This document shows, one piece after another, positions 2,595 through 47,643 of a stretch of 47,643 nt of DNA; position 1 is the first letter of the stretch; each line of letters begins with the position of its first letter. The position numbers and the translations under genes are program-made. This stretch comes from PVC group bacterium. GTDB lineage: Bacteria > Verrucomicrobiota > Kiritimatiellia > PWTM01. The notes under the pieces are model-generated. The model was given only the letters and a program-made list of their open reading frames with translations. It did no database searches and was not told the origin of the DNA. The DNA lies in NCBI GenBank assembly GCA_003563855.1, contig PWTM01000191.1, positions 1 to 47,643 of the forward strand. The letters run 5' to 3'.

Positions 2595-4330
2595 ATGAAG
2601 CGGATCGTCGTGGCGCTGGTGCAGGTGGACTTCACGGTGGGGGCTTTGCGGCCGAACGCGGAGAAGATCGCGCGGCTGGCGGGGCGGCTTCACGCGGAGG
2701 GGGCCGGGGTGGTGGTTTTCCCGGAGCTTGCGCTCTGCGGTTATCCGCCGGAAGACCTGGTGCTCAAGCCGCATTTCCTCGACGACGCGGCGGCGGCGCT
2801 TGGGGACCTGGCGGCGGCGCTGCCGCCGGCGGCCGTGGTGCTGGCCGGGGCGCCGGTGCGCCGGCGGGGCCGGGTGCTGAACGCGGCCGCCGTCCTGGCG
2901 GGGGGCCGGCTGGCGGCCGTCTACGGCAAGCACCTGCTGCCGAACTACGGGGTGTTCGACGAGAAGCGGCTTTTCGCGCCGGGCGGAACCTCGCTGGTGC
3001 TGACGGCGCCGGGCGCGCGGCTCGGGGTGCACGTCTGCGAGGATTCCTGGGAGTCGCGGGGCGCGCCCTGCCGGCGGCTCGCCGCCGCGGGCGTGGACGC
3101 GGTGCTGAATCTCTCCGCCTCGCCCTACCATCGCGGGAAGGCGGCCGAGCGCCTGGATGTGCTGGCGGCGGCGGCGCGCGCGGTCGGGGCGCCGCTGCTC
3201 TACTGCAACCTGGTCGGCGGACAGGACGAGCTGGTCTTCGACGGCGCGAGCATGGCGGTGGGGGCCGACGGCCGCCTTCGCGCCCGCGCGGCCGCCTTCG
3301 AAGAAGACGTGCTCTGGTTCGAGCTGCCCTGCGCCGCCCGCTCCGGCGCGAAACGCCTGGCCCGGCTGCGCGAAGCCGCGCTGCCCGTCCCGATCCCGCC
3401 CGCGCGCCGGCCCCGGCGGCCGCGGCGGATCGCGCCGCTGCCGGGTGCGGTCGAGGAGGTGTACCGCGCGCTCTCGCTCGGGCTGCGCGACTACATGGAC
3501 AAGAACGGCTTCGGGAAGGCGGTGATCGCGCTCAGCGGCGGGATCGATTCCGCGCTGGTGGCGGTGCTGGCGGCCGATGCGCTGGGCGCGGACCGGGTGC
3601 ACGCGGTGACGATGCCCTCGCGCTATTCCTCGGCCGGGACCCGGCGCGATGCGCGGCGGCTGGCGCGCAACCTCGGCATCCCGCTGCGGACGATCCCGAT
3701 CGATCCGCTGGTCGAGGCCTGCCGGGCCGCGCTCGCGCCCCACTGGGGCGCTCCGCCGCCGGACCTCGTCGAGGAGAACGTGCAGGCCCGGCTTCGCGGG
3801 CTGCTGGTCATGGCGCTCTCGAACGCGTTCGGCTGGCTGGTGCTCTCGACCGGGAACAAGAGCGAGCTGGCGATGGGCTACTGCACGCTCTACGGCGACA
3901 TGGCGGGCGGCTACGCGCTGATCAAGGACGTGCCCAAGACGCTGGTCTTCGAGCTGTGCCGCTGGCGCAACGCGCAGGGCCGGCCGCCCGTCATCCCGCC
4001 CTCGGTCCTCACGCGCGCGCCCAGCGCCGAGCTGCGCGAGAACCAGCGCGACGAGGACAGCCTTCCGCCCTACGCGCGGCTGGACCCGATCCTCGAGCGC
4101 TACGTCGAGCGCGACGGGCGGTTCGATGCCATCGTCGCGGAAGGATTCGCCCCCGAAACGGTTGCGCGCGTGATCCGGGGGGTGGACGCGGCCGAGTACA
4201 AGCGCCGGCAGGGCGCGCCGGGGGTGAGGATCACGGCGCGCGCCTTCGGCCGCGACCGCCGGATGCCGATCGTGAATCTCTACCGCGAGGGGCCGCGGCC
4301 GGCCGGGGTCCGCGCACGGGGGACCTCCGC

Positions 4331-4334: not shown

Positions 4335-5869
<1,535 letters not shown>

Positions 5870-5877
5870 CCCGCGCC

Positions 5878-7614
5878 TCAGATGCGGTCGGGCGTCTCGA
5901 TCCCGAGCAGGTCCAGCCCCGCGCGTAGCGCGCGGGCCACGGCGCCGCAGATCCGCACGCGACTCTCGCGCACGCCCTCGGGTGCGCGCAGGAACGGCAC
6001 GTTCTGGTAGAAGCGGCTGTAGGCCTGGGCCAGCTCGTAGAGGTAGTCGGCCAGCAGGCTGGGCCGGAAGGCGGAGGCCGCGCGCAGCACGGCGTCCGGG
6101 AACCGCAGCAGGTGGAGCGCGAGCCGGCGCTCCGACGGGTCGGTGAAGCGGATCGGATGCCGGTCCAGCGCCGCGGCGTCGAAGCGCTCCGCGTACTTGT
6201 CCCGCACGCTCGCGATCCGGGCGAAGGCGTACTGCAGGTAGGGGGCCGAGTTGCCGTCGAGCGCCAGTGCCTTGTCCCAGGTGAAGGTGACGAGGCTCTG
6301 CGGGTGCTGGCTCAGGTCGGCGTACTTGACCGCGCCGAGGCCGACGGCGCGGGCGATCGCGCGCTGCTGCGCCTCGGGCAGGTCCGGACTCGAGGCGCGG
6401 ACCAGCGCCAGGGCCCGCTCCTCGGCCTCGTCGAGCAGCCGCTCGAGCTTGATGACGTTCCCCTCGCGCGTCGAGAACGTGCCCTCGGGGAGCCGCATGA
6501 GGCCGAACCAGACGTGGGCGAGCCGGGTGCGCACGCCGAGCCGGCGCGCGACGGCGAAGACCTGCCGGAAGTGGAGCTGCTGCCGCTCGTCCGTCACGTA
6601 GACGATCGCCTCGGGCGCGAACGCCTGCACGCGGTCGAGCACCGTCGCCAGATCCGTCGTCGCGTAGTTGAACCCCCCGTCGCGCTTGCGCACGAGGCAG
6701 ACGGGCAGGCCCTCGTCCTCGAGGTCCACGACCAGCGCGCCTTCGCTCTCGCGCGCCAGGCCTTCGCGCTCCATCCGGGCGATCAGGTCCGGCAGCGCCT
6801 CGTTGTAGTGACTCTCCCCGCGCGTGAGGTCGAAGCGCACGCCGAGCCGCGCGTAGATGCGGTCGAACTCCTGCCGGCTGAGCTCGACGAACCGCGTCCA
6901 GAGCGCCCGGTTCTCCGGGTCGCCCTGCTGGAGCTTGACCAGCTCGCGCCGGGCGGCGTCGCGCCAGGCCTCGTCCTCGCGTGCGCGCTCGTAGCTCGCG
7001 ACGTAGATGCGCTCGAGCTCTTCGACCGGGGCCGCCTCGAGCGCGACCGGGTCGGCGAAGTGCCGGTAGCCGAGGATCAGGATACCGAACTGCGTGCCCC
7101 AGTCGCCCAGGTGGTTGTCGGCGATGACCCGGTAGCCGAGGAACCGGTGCAGGCGATCGAGCGCGTTCCCGATGACGGTCGAGCGGATGTGCCCGACGTG
7201 CATCGGCTTGGCGACGTTCGGGCTCGAGTAGTCGAGCACGAGCGTGCGGCCCGCGCCGGGGGCGGGCGTCCCGAGCCGCGGGTCGGCGGCGGCGGCCTCG
7301 AGGCGGCGGGCCGCCCAGGCGTCGTCGATCCGAAGGTTCAGGAAGCCCGGGCCGGCGACCTCGACCGCCGCAACGGCCGGGTGGGGCGGGGCGGCGGCCG
7401 CCGCGGCCTCCGCGATCGCGCGCGGCGGCTTGCGCAGCGTGCGCGCGAGGCCCATCGCCGCGTTGCACTGCGCGTCGCCGTGCGCCTCCTGCGCCGTACG
7501 GGCGACAGGCGCCGCGAAGTCGGGCGCCTCCGCCAGCGCCGGGAACGCGGCGCGGAACGCCGCGCGCGCCCATGTGGAAAGTTCCTGCTCCAGCGTGTGC
7601 TCTTCCTGGGTCAT
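5878..7614 (-). CDS. argS: Arginyl-tRNA synthetase
   Basis: VLDYSSPNVAKPMHVGHIRSTVIGNALDRLHRFLGYRVIADNHLGDWGTQFG; HIGH-type motif, DALR-type C-terminus. Start at MTQEEHT. Confidence 0.93.
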   Translation of the reverse strand: MTQEEHTLEQELSTWARAAFRAAFPALAEAPDFAAPVARTAQEAHGDAQCNAAMGLARTLRKPPRAIAEAAAAAAPPHPAVAAVEVAGPGFLNLRIDDAWAARRLEAAAADPRLGTPAPGAGRTLVLDYSSPNVAKPMHVGHIRSTVIGNALDRLHRFLGYRVIADNHLGDWGTQFGILILGYRHFADPVALEAAPVEELERIYVASYERAREDEAWRDAARRELVKLQQGDPENRALWTRFVELSRQEFDRIYARLGVRFDLTRGESHYNEALPDLIARMEREGLARESEGALVVDLEDEGLPVCLVRKRDGGFNYATTDLATVLDRVQAFAPEAIVYVTDERQQLHFRQVFAVARRLGVRTRLAHVWFGLMRLPEGTFSTREGNVIKLERLLDEAEERALALVRASSPDLPEAQQRAIARAVGLGAVKYADLSQHPQSLVTFTWDKALALDGNSAPYLQYAFARIASVRDKYAERFDAAALDRHPIRFTDPSERRLALHLLRFPDAVLRAASAFRPSLLADYLYELAQAYSRFYQNVPFLRAPEGVRESRVRICGAVARALRAGLDLLGIETPDRI

Positions 7615-7724
7615 CCCGGTCCCCTTGACGGCCGCCGCCGAAGCGGGCATTGTCGGGGTCGGAGGCGCGAAGCGCAATGAAGATTCGCCGCCGGGGTCCC
7701 CGGCGCGATGGAGGAAACCGAACC

Positions 7725-8042
7725 ATGTCCCCAGCGAAGAAGAGCACCGGCGCGACCCGGAAGACGACGGCCCGGGCGGCGAAGGCGCCGGCCGCGAAAG
7801 CGCCCGCGAAGCCGGCGGCGAAGAAGGCGGCCGCGAAGAAGACGGTCCGGAAGACGGCGAAGACGCCGGCGGCCGCGGCGCCGGCGTCGGCGGTCCGTCC
7901 CGAGGAGCGGCATCGCCGCATTGCCGAGGCGGCCTATTTCATTGCGCTCAAGAAGGGCTTCGGTCGCAGCGACCCGGCCCATGACTGGGCGGAGGCGGAG
8001 AAGGAAGTCGACGCGCAGCTCGCGCGCGAAGCCCGTCGCTGA
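7725..8042 (+). CDS. DUF2934-like protein with Ala/Lys/Pro-rich histone H1-like N-terminus
   Basis: MSPAKKSTGATRKTTARAAKAPAAKAPAKPAAKKAAAKK... then RIAEAAYFIALKKGFGRSDPAHDWAEAEKEVDAQL. Confidence 0.75.
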   Translation: MSPAKKSTGATRKTTARAAKAPAAKAPAKPAAKKAAAKKTVRKTAKTPAAAAPASAVRPEERHRRIAEAAYFIALKKGFGRSDPAHDWAEAEKEVDAQLAREARR

Positions 8043-8046
8043 GCGG

Positions 8047-8853
8047 ATGAGCGGTCGCCCCCGGATCCTCGTGATCACGGGCTACGGCCTGAATTGCGAG
8101 GCCGAGTCCTGTCACGCCTGGGCGCGGGCCGGCGCGGCGCCCGAGGCGGTGCATCTCTCCGACCTGCTGGCCGATCCCTCCCGGCTCGACGCCTTTGCGG
8201 GCCTGATGTTCATCGGGGGGTTCTCCTTCGGCGATCACATGACGTCGGGCCACGTCATGGCCGTGCGCCTGCGGCACCGGCTCGGGCCGCACCTGGAGCG
8301 GTTTCTCGACCGTGGCGGGTTGGCGCTGGGCGTCTGCAACGGGTTCCAGATCATGGTCAAGCTCGGCCTCGTGCCGGGCCTGCCCGATCCGCGGGCCTCG
8401 CGGCTTTCACCGCAGGTCGCGCTGATGGCCAACGACTGCGGCGCCTTCCAGAACCGCTGGGTGCGTGTCCGGTTCGAGCCCGACTCGCCCTGCGTCTTCA
8501 CGCGCGGGCTGGACACGATGCCGCTCCCCGTGCGCCACGGCGAGGGGAAGCTTTTCGTCCCGCGCAAGGCCGTGCTGGAGGCGATCGAAGCCGCGGGCTG
8601 CGTCGCCTGCCGCTACATCGACCCCGAGACCGGCGCGCCCGCGGACCGCTTCCCCGCCAACCCGAACGGGTCGGTCCATGCCATCGCCGGCCTCTGCGAT
8701 CCGACCGGCCGCGTCTTCGGGCTGATGCCGCACCCGGAAGCCTACCTCTACCCCGAGAACCACCCGACCTGGGACTTCGAGGGGAGCCCGCGCGACGAAG
8801 GCGAAGGCCTGGCCCTCTTCCGCAACGCCGTCGAGTTCTTGCGGGCGGGCTAG
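8047..8853 (+). CDS. purQ: Phosphoribosylformylglycinamidine synthase, glutamine amidotransferase subunit/domain
   Basis: ILVITGYGLNCEAES, GGFSFGDHMTSG, ALGVCNGFQIMVKLGLVPG, FGLMPHPEAYLYPENHP. Confidence 0.8.
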   Translation: MSGRPRILVITGYGLNCEAESCHAWARAGAAPEAVHLSDLLADPSRLDAFAGLMFIGGFSFGDHMTSGHVMAVRLRHRLGPHLERFLDRGGLALGVCNGFQIMVKLGLVPGLPDPRASRLSPQVALMANDCGAFQNRWVRVRFEPDSPCVFTRGLDTMPLPVRHGEGKLFVPRKAVLEAIEAAGCVACRYIDPETGAPADRFPANPNGSVHAIAGLCDPTGRVFGLMPHPEAYLYPENHPTWDFEGSPRDEGEGLALFRNAVEFLRAG

Positions 8854-44422: not shown

Positions 44423-45709
44423 TCACGACCTCGCAGGCGCCGAAGGCGCAGTCCGGCCGCGTGGCTGATGCAGGCGGCTGCGCGCGAGGTCGACCGCGCC
44501 GCCGGCCAGGCGGGCGAACGCGCCGGCCGCGTGCCGCCATCTGCGCGCGAGTCGGCCGCGGTGCGGGTAGCGGCGCCGCAGGGTGCGGGTGTCGGGCCAG
44601 AGGTAGCGGAATGCGTCGAGAAGGCGGACCGGGCGGAACCCGGTATCGCGGCGGAACCCGAACCGGCTGCGGCGGGGCGCATCGGGATCGCCGCTGAGCC
44701 AGCGGACGGCGGCGGCTTCGAGTCTCCGCGCGAGCGGGCCGGCCTCGGGGCCGTCGAGCCGCGCCAGCACCCCGGCCGGCGGCGGGACACCGAGCAGGAC
44801 TTCGGTGGCCCGAAGGCCGGCGCGCGCGGCCGGCTCGACGTTCCAGCGCTGTGCCTTCGCGACCAGCCGGTCGACATCGAGCGTCCCGCCAAGGCGGTCG
44901 AGGGCGGCCGCCACGTCGAGCGCGTGAATCCACCAGCCGGCGGCCAGCACGCGGGCGGCGGCGTCCGGGCGTTCGAGCAGCCGCTCGATCCAGGGGCCGT
45001 GCTTGACGAGGTGGATACAGAGCGAGAGCAGCAGATCGTCCTCGGCGAGGCGCAGCGCCGGTGCGCCCGCGATCGTGCCCGGCCGGGCGGCGTCGAGGAT
45101 CTCGGCGTAGTCGATCAGCCAGCGCGTGAACCGGTGATCGAGCGCCCAATGCACCTCGGCCATCACGCCGGTCTTCCCGTGGACGTAGAGCAGGTGCAGG
45201 TGCTGGCGCTCGTAGTAGCCGTCGTCGAGGGCGCCGGCGGGCGGACCGTAGCCGGCCTCGCGCAGCAGCGCCTTGACGCGGGGCAGTTCGCCGCGGTCGA
45301 TCAGCAGGTCCAGGTCGCTGTAGGGGCGGAGCGAGGGGTCGTCGTAGACGCGCTCGCCGACGGCCGGGCCGCGGAGAAGCACCGCGCGCGCGCCGTTGGC
45401 GTGGAAACGGACGAGCAGGTCACGCGTGGCCTCGTCGAGCCGCGCGGCGCGGAAAAGCTCGCGCCGGAGCCGGTCCCTCAATTCGCGCCCGAGGGCCTCG
45501 GGCAGCGCCGCGTCGAGTCCGGCGGCCTTGAGCGCGCGCCAGAGCAGCGGCACGAGCCGGTTCCTGTCGGCGAGGACGAGCAGCCGGCCCGGGTCGGGGC
45601 CGGCCGCGAGGGCGGTCCGGGCGGCCTCCGCCTCGGACTCGCCGATCCGCGGCCGGGTCAGCGCGGCGAGGAGGCGCACTTCGGGCGGAGGGATGTCGGA
45701 AGGGTTCAT
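44423..45709 (-). CDS. Nucleotidyltransferase family protein (NTP_transf_5-like)
   Basis: GARAVLLRGPAVGERVYDDPSLRPYSDLDLLIDRGELPRVKALLREAGYGPP...AEVHWALDHRF. Confidence 0.82.
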   Translation of the reverse strand: MNPSDIPPPEVRLLAALTRPRIGESEAEAARTALAAGPDPGRLLVLADRNRLVPLLWRALKAAGLDAALPEALGRELRDRLRRELFRAARLDEATRDLLVRFHANGARAVLLRGPAVGERVYDDPSLRPYSDLDLLIDRGELPRVKALLREAGYGPPAGALDDGYYERQHLHLLYVHGKTGVMAEVHWALDHRFTRWLIDYAEILDAARPGTIAGAPALRLAEDDLLLSLCIHLVKHGPWIERLLERPDAAARVLAAGWWIHALDVAAALDRLGGTLDVDRLVAKAQRWNVEPAARAGLRATEVLLGVPPPAGVLARLDGPEAGPLARRLEAAAVRWLSGDPDAPRRSRFGFRRDTGFRPVRLLDAFRYLWPDTRTLRRRYPHRGRLARRWRHAAGAFARLAGGAVDLARSRLHQPRGRTAPSAPARS

Positions 45710-45942
45710 CGTCGGCGGCAACCCTATAGACCATGTGACGGCGGCGCGGAAGCGGATTCGCGTGAAGGGCAGGGGAGGGGGGACGGGGAACGCGATGACG
45801 GGGTGGGCGCACCGGGTCCGTCGGCGTGTCGGCCTTCCGTACAGCGGGAGCTGCGCACCCGCGGCCGAGCGGTGGCTGGCGTGGGCCGACAGCAGCGGTC
45901 CCGTAGGTCCCACTGCACGGGCGCGGTGTAGCGTCCGCGACG

Positions 45943-45972
45943 TTGACACGGCGCTTCCGGGCAGCACAGAAT
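45943..45972 (+). promoter_or_regulatory. Sigma70-like promoter for pqqD-like/radical SAM operon
   Basis: TTGACA, N18, CAGAAT. Confidence 0.5.
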
Positions 45973-46007
45973 CCGCGCGCGCAGCGGCATCGCCGCGCGG
46001 GGGAGGG

Positions 46008-46313
46008 ATGGGAATGGCGGACGAAGCGACCGGAAGCGCGCGGCTGAGCCGGGCGGACGACGTGGTGCGGCGCCAGATCGCCGACGAAATCATCCTTGTG
46101 CCGGTGCGGCGCTCGGCCGAGGACTTGGACAGCATCTACTCGATCAACCCGCTGGCCGCCCAGATCTGGGACGGGCTCGACGGACAGCGGACGCTCGGCG
46201 AGATCCGCGCGCAGATTCTCGATGAATACGAGGTCAGCGCCGGTGATCTCGATCGCGACCTGGCCGAATTCGTCGCGCAGCTGAAGGCCGAGGGGCTGGT
46301 CCGGGAGGCCTGA
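46008..46313 (+). CDS. PqqD-family (RRE-like) protein
   Basis: RADDVVRRQIADEIILVPVRRSAEDLDSIYSINPLAAQIWDGLDGQRTLGEIRAQILDEYEVSAGDLDRDLAEFVAQLKAEGLV; alternative start at 46014. Confidence 0.88.
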   Translation: MGMADEATGSARLSRADDVVRRQIADEIILVPVRRSAEDLDSIYSINPLAAQIWDGLDGQRTLGEIRAQILDEYEVSAGDLDRDLAEFVAQLKAEGLVREA

Positions 46314-46314
46314 G

Positions 46315-47430
46315 ATGGACGCGCAGGGCGCGCCGTCGGTCGAGTACGCGGATTGGAGCCTGCGGGTGCACCAGCAGGCGAACCGCCAGCGCCTCCCGCT
46401 CTCCGGCTCCCTCGAGGTCACCTTCGACTGCAACTTTCGTTGCATCCACTGCTACTGTGTCGATCAACCCCCGCGGAAGGAGCTGAGCCTCGACGAGATT
46501 CGGAAGCTGCTGGACCAGATGGCCGCCGAGGGATGCCTCTGGCTGTTGCTGACGGGCGGGGAGCCGCTGCTGCGTCGGGACTTCCCGGAGATCTACCTGC
46601 ACGCGCGGCAGCGCGGGCTGATCACGACGGTCTTCACGAACGGGAGCCTGGTGACGGACCGCATCGCGGGGCTGCTGGGCGACCTGAAGCCGTTCGTCGT
46701 CGAGGTCACGCTCTACGGGTTCTCGTCGGAGACCTACCGGGAGGTCACGGGCCGCGCGGAGCATTTCGATCGCGTCCTGCAGGGGATCGACCGGCTCCAG
46801 GCGCGCGGGGTTCCGCTCAAACTCAAGTCGATGATCCTGCGCCAGAATCTCGGCGATCTTCCGCAGTTGCAGGCCTTCGCGGAATCGCGCGGGCTGGCGT
46901 ACCGGTTTGACCCGGTGTTGAACCCGACGCTGGCCGGCGACCGGCGGCCGGAGGAGCTGATGGTCGCGCCCGCGGAGATCGTGCGGCTGGACCTCGATGA
47001 CGCGGAGCGCCTCAAGGGCTGGCGGGACTTCTGCGAGAAGTTCACGTTCGCCTGCGACGACGGACGGCTCTTCAAGTGCGGCGCGGGGCAGTGGGGGTTC
47101 CATGTCGATCCGGAGGGCAAACTCTCGCTCTGCATGTTCGCCCGGCAGTACCAGTGCGACCTTCGCCGGATCTCCTTCCGTGAGGCCTTCTACACGTTCC
47201 TGCCGTCAGTCCTCGAGCGCAAGGAAACGCGCGTTACGAAATGCACGAGCTGCGCCATCCGCAACATGTGCGGGCAGTGCGCGGGCTGGGCGCACCTGCA
47301 CAGCGGCGACGAAGAGGCGCCGGTCGAGTACCTCTGCCGGATCGCGCATGCGCGGGCCGAGGCGTTCGGCATCGCGACGGCGCTCCCGGCGCAGGGAGGG
47401 ATGCGGGATGAATCGCTCGACGGCTCTTGA
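46315..47430 (+). CDS. Radical SAM/SPASM domain protein
   Basis: LEVTFDCNFRCIHCYCVDQP (CxxxCxxC), LLLTGGEPLLRRDF; C-terminal Cys-rich CTSCAIRNMCGQCAGWA...LCRIAHARAE. Confidence 0.92.
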   Translation: MDAQGAPSVEYADWSLRVHQQANRQRLPLSGSLEVTFDCNFRCIHCYCVDQPPRKELSLDEIRKLLDQMAAEGCLWLLLTGGEPLLRRDFPEIYLHARQRGLITTVFTNGSLVTDRIAGLLGDLKPFVVEVTLYGFSSETYREVTGRAEHFDRVLQGIDRLQARGVPLKLKSMILRQNLGDLPQLQAFAESRGLAYRFDPVLNPTLAGDRRPEELMVAPAEIVRLDLDDAERLKGWRDFCEKFTFACDDGRLFKCGAGQWGFHVDPEGKLSLCMFARQYQCDLRRISFREAFYTFLPSVLERKETRVTKCTSCAIRNMCGQCAGWAHLHSGDEEAPVEYLCRIAHARAEAFGIATALPAQGGMRDESLDGS

Positions 47431-47643
47431 AATCGCGGGGATCCGCTATTCGCTGGAGAAGGCGAAGGGCGGGTCGGATCTCGTGATCGACCGTTCGCAT
47501 GCTCCCTTCGTTTCGGAGGGCGAGCCCGCGCTGCGGTTCGAGGCGGTGGACGGCGACTGGCCGGCGATCGAGGGGCTTCGGCCCGCGTTCGAGTCCGGCT
47601 CCTGGTGGCGGATGCTCGAGGCGCCGGGCGCCCACGTGGTCTC
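47408..47643 (+). CDS. Unknown protein, 5' part only, in the PqqD/radical SAM operon
   Basis: MNRSTALEIAGIRYSLEKAKGGSDLVIDRSHAPFVSEGEPALRFEAVDGDWPAIEGLRPAFESGSWWRMLEAPGAHVV; overlaps the radical SAM 3' end; open to the window edge. Confidence 0.7.
   Translation, partial: MNRSTALEIAGIRYSLEKAKGGSDLVIDRSHAPFVSEGEPALRFEAVDGDWPAIEGLRPAFESGSWWRMLEAPGAHVV

Follow-up and report, generated by a model that had tools for sequence, protein, structure and literature searches.

The window analysed here is a stretch of 47,643 nucleotides from a PVC group bacterium (class Kiritimatiellia) and corresponds to one contig, PWTM01000191.1 (G000:C200), in full. Its right end carries four genes, which encode a nucleotidyltransferase, a PqqD-like protein, a radical S-adenosylmethionine (SAM) enzyme and the beginning of a kinase, and which we regard as a cassette for a ribosomally synthesized and post-translationally modified peptide (RiPP). 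The genome is a metagenome-assembled genome (MAG) of 370 contigs and 3.27 Mb that is 89.8% complete. Since the window is an entire contig, it could not be extended within the assembly, and its right end breaks off inside the fourth gene. The genes at this end, listed in order, are:

44423..45709, minus strand: NTP_transf_5 (PF14907) nucleotidyltransferase-like protein, divergently transcribed; coordinates from its ATG (PF14907 E 2.2e-44).
46008..46313, plus strand: stand-alone PqqD-like protein, probable leader-binding RiPP recognition element (RRE) (PF05402 E 3.1e-16).
46315..47430, plus strand: radical SAM enzyme with a SPASM-like C-terminus (PF04055 E 1.4e-25).
47408..47643, plus strand: HprK-like kinase, N-terminal 78 residues; cut by the contig end, with the catalytic part outside the window.

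All four open reading frames (ORFs) were confirmed to be present, and the locus is real. A sequence-only reading of this DNA had described a stand-alone PqqD-like protein directly upstream of a radical SAM enzyme with a SPASM-like Cys-rich C-terminus, together with a divergently transcribed nucleotidyltransferase, and the domain matches and coordinates above agree with each of these points. The start codon of the PqqD-like protein was picked from the sequence (ATG at 46008, after GGGGGAGGG). The radical SAM gene begins 1 bp past the PqqD stop codon and overlaps the fourth ORF by 23 bp, and the latter is cut at residue 78. A search for small ORFs across the window revealed no precursor-like ORF between the divergent genes or anywhere else, just as none had been recognised before.

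The radical SAM enzyme contains the CxxxCxxC motif as CNFRCIHC (residues 39-46) and a SPASM-like set of Cys residues composed of C255, C273, CTSCAIRNMCGQC at residues 310-322, and C341. When a profile of the enzyme was compared with solved structures, the best match was SkfB (6efn, E 3e-35) and the second was PqqE; with these two as the nearest structures, thioether, carbon-carbon and other chemistry are all possible. A search of a plasmid collection with the enzyme gave a distant Streptomyces protein as its sole match.

The fourth ORF had been described as an unknown ORF that overlaps the radical SAM gene and is truncated by the window end. The overlap and the truncation stand, but the ORF is no longer unknown because it is 57% identical over 75 residues (E 2.7e-24) to residues 4-78 of an HprK-like kinase located at the equivalent place in the orthologous locus of a relative, L005. 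It also matched a local kinase profile with an E value of 3e-6. The L005 homologue is a kinase of 287 amino acids with the motifs GVSGAGKST and SDD, and a profile built from 18 such kinases found the structures of HPr kinases (E 1.1e-5) as well as PEP carboxykinases. A catalytic His, a P-loop and an Asp region have been described in the kinases of lasso peptide clusters (PMC9266682, PMC10368454). These catalytic residues, His, GxxGxGKS (GxSGxGK) and Asp-Asp, are retained in the kinases of the relatives, while the window copy ends before this region. The remainder of the kinase was not found on the other contigs of the assembly.

L005 is a contig of a Verrucomicrobia MAG and was the single close relative found among species-representative genomes; it was taken as one contig with G056:C12, and their precursors are shared. 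Its radical SAM enzyme is 72% identical to that of the window, and its nucleotidyltransferase gene is divergent too. Between the radical SAM gene and the kinase gene of L005 are two precursor ORFs of 50 and 51 amino acids, and a third copy of the precursor is located ∼10 kb upstream. Using a single L005 peptide as the query, we found a precursor in the window genome as well, MKKPYQKPSIRRIKLVPSEAVLQACKTGGSSGPGASDCLSLNGPCASIGS at C50:4684-4836 (E 4.2e-16). Two GT4 glycosyltransferase genes come after it (precursor and both genes at L050, 4684-7428), and each has a homologue behind the third precursor copy of L005. Judged from these neighbours, the product may carry further sugars.

The precursors are about 42-63 amino acids in length and gave no meaningful match among Pfam or NCBIfam models. 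All 20 collected peptides contain the motif YxxPx[LIVM] and two or three Cys residues. The C-terminal residue is Ser in 18 of the 20 (Thr and Tyr in the others), compared with 74 of the 664 similarly sized small ORFs from the same loci. The cores are strongly variable, with one invariant Cys near the core start. In the further loci described below the peptides were picked by their position after the radical SAM gene and inspected afterwards. Several other ORF clusters common to the loci were set aside because they turned out to be antisense shadows of the radical SAM gene and other genes.

We also examined the conservation of the cassette across the class. In 18 further loci the radical SAM enzyme is 29-41% identical to that of the window; the PqqD gene nearly always adjoins it, and a divergent peptide lies immediately after it in 15 of the 18. 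An RRE-type PqqD protein, a radical SAM/SPASM maturase and a precursor are thus encoded together in L005 and in those 15 loci. Searching 388 genomes of the phylum with a profile of the peptide gave matches in 30, every one in the class of the window, and these 30 include 18 of the 19 genomes already known to bear the radical SAM enzyme of the cassette. Beyond the phylum, the searches covered plasmids and, in a single scan, representative genomes. Among 15 newly fetched peptide loci, a kinase was found beside the peptide in 11 and a recognisable radical SAM enzyme in 9; the peptide ends in Ser in 13 of the 15, a proportion to be read with the fact that the search profile itself favours a Ser ending. 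Taking together the 29 loci with the radical SAM enzyme, PqqD and the kinase are each present in 26, the kinase mostly right after the peptide. Roughly 30 of the sampled genomes, all from one class, have divergent versions of the cassette, consisting of PqqD, radical SAM enzyme, peptide and kinase.

Because this order of genes recurs across many genomes of the class, their association is not due to chance. Co-occurrence of all four gene families had been named as a check in the sequence-only reading; PqqD, radical SAM enzyme, peptide and kinase do strongly co-occur, whereas the nucleotidyltransferase was found in only ∼12 of the examined loci (including L005, L031, L040 and L041). The proposal of a RiPP-like PqqD/radical SAM cassette, put forward in the same reading, is supported by the precursors in L005 and in the window genome and by the conserved order PqqD-radical SAM-precursor-kinase. 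Other genes were also found near the cassettes. An S24/S26-like protein adjoins the kinase in L005, L040 and L041; in many other loci such a match is found next to the kinase but on the other strand, and some of these may be shadow ORFs. An ABC transporter is present in L005. Large Peptidase_C25 (gingipain-like) proteins are encoded just upstream of PqqD in the distant cassettes L028, L031, L036, L037 and L044 (E 2.6e-59 to 1.1e-81) and near further cassettes too, but not beside the enzymes of the window or L005.

We compared the cassette with described PqqD/radical SAM systems, and no described family was matched above its cut-off; the window PqqD falls under every NCBIfam equivalog cut-off. 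SynChlorMet (ScmC/ScmD/ScmE/ScmF) likewise combines PqqD, a radical SAM/SPASM enzyme and an HprK-like protein, and weak NCBIfam matches linked the kinase of the relative to ScmC and the window PqqD and radical SAM enzyme to ScmD, ScmE and ScmF. SynChlorMet has two radical SAM genes, in contrast to one in the cassette, while the family of the window has a defined precursor and NTP_transf_5, and the scores rejected it (ScmD 26.1 of 100 bits, ScmE 65.3 of 400, ScmF 61.2 of 400, ScmC 20.8 of 125). GeoRSP was rejected in the same way (PqqD 25.4 of 100 bits, radical SAM enzyme 63.4 of 400), as were pyrroloquinoline quinone (PQQ) and mycofactocin (PqqD 29.6 of 46 bits, PqqE 65 of 381, mycofactocin maturase 98.3 of 265). 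Sactipeptide and ranthipeptide maturases such as SkfB and CteB are similar in being radical SAM/SPASM enzymes that act on Cys-containing precursors, and differ in that the RRE of the cassette is a separate protein and a kinase and a nucleotidyltransferase are added. The two or three Cys of the cores are compatible with a sactipeptide thioether and are no test of it.

HPr-rel-A (HprK_rel_A, PqqD_rel_X) also pairs an HprK-related kinase with a PqqD-like protein, but the cassette is under its cut-offs (PqqD_rel_X 13.7 of 35 bits, HprK_rel_A 18.6 of 200) and a better candidate lies on contig C317 of the same genome. This second, distinct locus (L116, G000:C317:1-9000) contains a PqqD protein (3624-3905), a B12-type radical SAM enzyme (about 6177-7616) closest to the BchE and ApyD models, and an HprK-related kinase A (about 7694-8464). 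It matches HprK_rel_A with E 3.8e-15 and PqqD_rel_X with E 5.4e-7, and an ORF of 61 amino acids starting MNRKKRFEPPVILTYRREEL near 4423 is a candidate for its peptide. Two more PqqD-like domains are present in the genome (G000:C170:16218-16403 and G000:C270:2505-2672), with no match to the radical SAM or kinase families of the cassette nearby.

The kinase and the nucleotidyltransferase together point to C-terminal tailoring of the lasso peptide type. In lasso systems the C-terminal Ser is phosphorylated by a kinase, and PsmN of the pseudomycoidin cluster is needed for the one or two hexoses found there (PMC9266682). The lasso leader carries the motif YxxPxL, and the B1 protein assists cleavage and phosphorylation alike (PMC10368454). 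The cassette shares with the paeninodin, pseudomycoidin and Bradymonas bsf clusters a stand-alone PqqD-like B1 protein, a YxxPx[LIVM]-type leader, a C-terminal Ser, an HprK-like kinase with the same catalytic residues and an NTP_transf_5-type gene. Unlike them, it has a radical SAM/SPASM enzyme in place of B2 and the cyclase, and its cores contain Cys. When the window nucleotidyltransferase was compared with the plasmid collection, matches were obtained in two records only, both within lasso clusters. The Halopiger cluster contains a nucleotidyltransferase, an HprK-like ORF, PqqD, B2 and asnB. In an unannotated stretch of Paenibacillus cellulosilyticus, several assignments being a reading of the translations, the ORFs were read as a nucleotidyltransferase, an asparagine synthetase, an HprK-like kinase, PqqD, a B2-like protein and an ABC transporter. 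By analogy, the window nucleotidyltransferase is a probable C-terminal tailoring enzyme similar to PsmN.

The cassette itself was rejected as a lasso peptide cluster because B2 is absent and a cyclase is not near it. The B2 leader peptidase (PF13471) gave no match in the window genome, which is about 90% complete, or in G056, and one match in 9 cassette genomes, away from the cassette; matches to Asn_synthase occur in the genomes, none of them strong at the cassette or on C50. The YxxPxL-type B1 leader, present in all 20 peptides, is a common trait and no proof of lasso membership. On the Butyrivibrio fibrisolvens plasmid pNP243 (L066, 6617-8640), a kinase, a Cys-rich peptide of 57 amino acids (MKKAYVKPELKAS..., the MKKAYVKPEL peptide), PqqD and an S24/S26 peptidase lie in a row, with nucleotidyltransferase and ABC genes nearby. 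Neither a radical SAM enzyme nor lasso enzymes are in view in this stretch, and it is possibly a related system with another core chemistry. Like the cassette, the plasmid locus suggests that PqqD/HprK/nucleotidyltransferase tailoring is a portable module.

We believe that the cassette operates as follows; every biochemical step, above all the radical SAM chemistry and the order of the steps, is one that we infer. The stand-alone PqqD protein would bind the short precursor through its YxxPx[LIVM] leader and present it to the radical SAM/SPASM enzyme, and this enzyme would modify the core that starts near the invariant Cys. As in lasso peptides of the paeninodin type, the HprK-like kinase would phosphorylate the C-terminal Ser, and NTP_transf_5, where present, may place a hexose or a nucleotide on the Ser phosphate, as reported for PsmN. 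The glycosyltransferases are candidates for the addition of further sugars; as guesses, leader removal could fall to the S24/S26 signal-peptidase-like protein and export of the product to the ABC transporter. It is highly probable that the product is a RiPP modified by the radical SAM enzyme. The kinase probably acts on the C-terminal Ser, and the combination of this action with a radical SAM-modified RiPP is also rather likely. Action of the nucleotidyltransferase on the Ser phosphate is suggested more tentatively. It is possible, and we propose it with still more reserve, that the cassette defines a new RiPP class in which the radical SAM/SPASM enzyme crosslinks the core while a lasso-type kinase and a nucleotidyltransferase build a C-terminal Ser-phosphate-sugar (or nucleotide).

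Several observations weigh against the reading of the cassette as a radical SAM RiPP system with a kinase acting on the C-terminal Ser. The window holds no precursor and just a fragment of the kinase. In its genome the precursor and the enzymes are on different MAG contigs, and their linkage is consequently drawn from L005; such a split is not unique, since in G038 and G124 the peptide and kinase are together, away from the radical SAM enzyme and PqqD. Part of the SPASM Cys is missing from some relatives of the radical SAM enzyme, so the chemistry may vary inside the family. No kinase is in reach at three radical SAM loci (L034, L036 and L042), and only a minority of loci have the nucleotidyltransferase. 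Finally, HprK-like kinases need not target the C-terminus, as the lasso kinase BsfK phosphorylates Ser3 (PMC10368454). The example of BsfK and the small share of loci with the nucleotidyltransferase favour an alternative in which the product is a RiPP but the kinase and nucleotidyltransferase act on another residue or a protein target, or are unrelated neighbours. We consider this unlikely: it leaves the conserved C-terminal Ser unexplained, the kinase accompanies 26 of the 29 radical SAM loci, mostly right after the peptide, and G038 and G124 retain it next to the peptide even with the radical SAM enzyme elsewhere.

A second alternative for the product is a redox cofactor derived from the peptide, similar to PQQ or mycofactocin, with PqqD presenting the peptide, the radical SAM enzyme crosslinking or decarboxylating it and the other proteins trimming it. 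The stand-alone PqqD, the second place of PqqE among the solved structures and the alignment of the mycofactocin maturase model to radical SAM residues 28-322 are consistent with this. The scores are far under the PqqE and mycofactocin cut-offs, and the cores are variable, with three precursor copies in L005, whereas a cofactor core is expected to be nearly invariant. We know of no role for a conserved C-terminal Ser or a kinase in the PQQ and mycofactocin pathways, and a cofactor is improbable. Least probable is a cell-surface component instead of a secreted natural product, the peptide maturing with a surface protein or glycan or attaching to it via the terminal Ser phosphate: C25 peptidase-domain proteins encoded immediately upstream of PqqD at several loci, the GT4 glycosyltransferases after the precursor on C50 and after its counterpart in L005, and polysaccharide export genes near two loci point towards it, but no C25 gene adjoins the enzymes of the window or of L005, and many clusters commonly have glycosyltransferase and export genes nearby.

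The combination of a radical SAM cassette with a lasso-type kinase was not found in the reference families or in the literature, of which coverage was partial with few subscription journals, and the searchable literature for this class of bacteria yielded no RiPP of such a kind. Likely enzymes can now be assigned to a precursor family that none of the searched models matches meaningfully. Phosphorylation of the C-terminus and the addition of sugars there, so far described for lasso peptides, are suggested to be separable from lasso biosynthesis and usable with other core chemistry. If the proposed new class is correct, the PqqD/HprK/nucleotidyltransferase module for C-terminal tailoring would be portable between unrelated RiPP core chemistries. 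The cassette also makes it possible to test directly what the uncharacterised NTP_transf_5 family and the HprK-like peptide kinases do.
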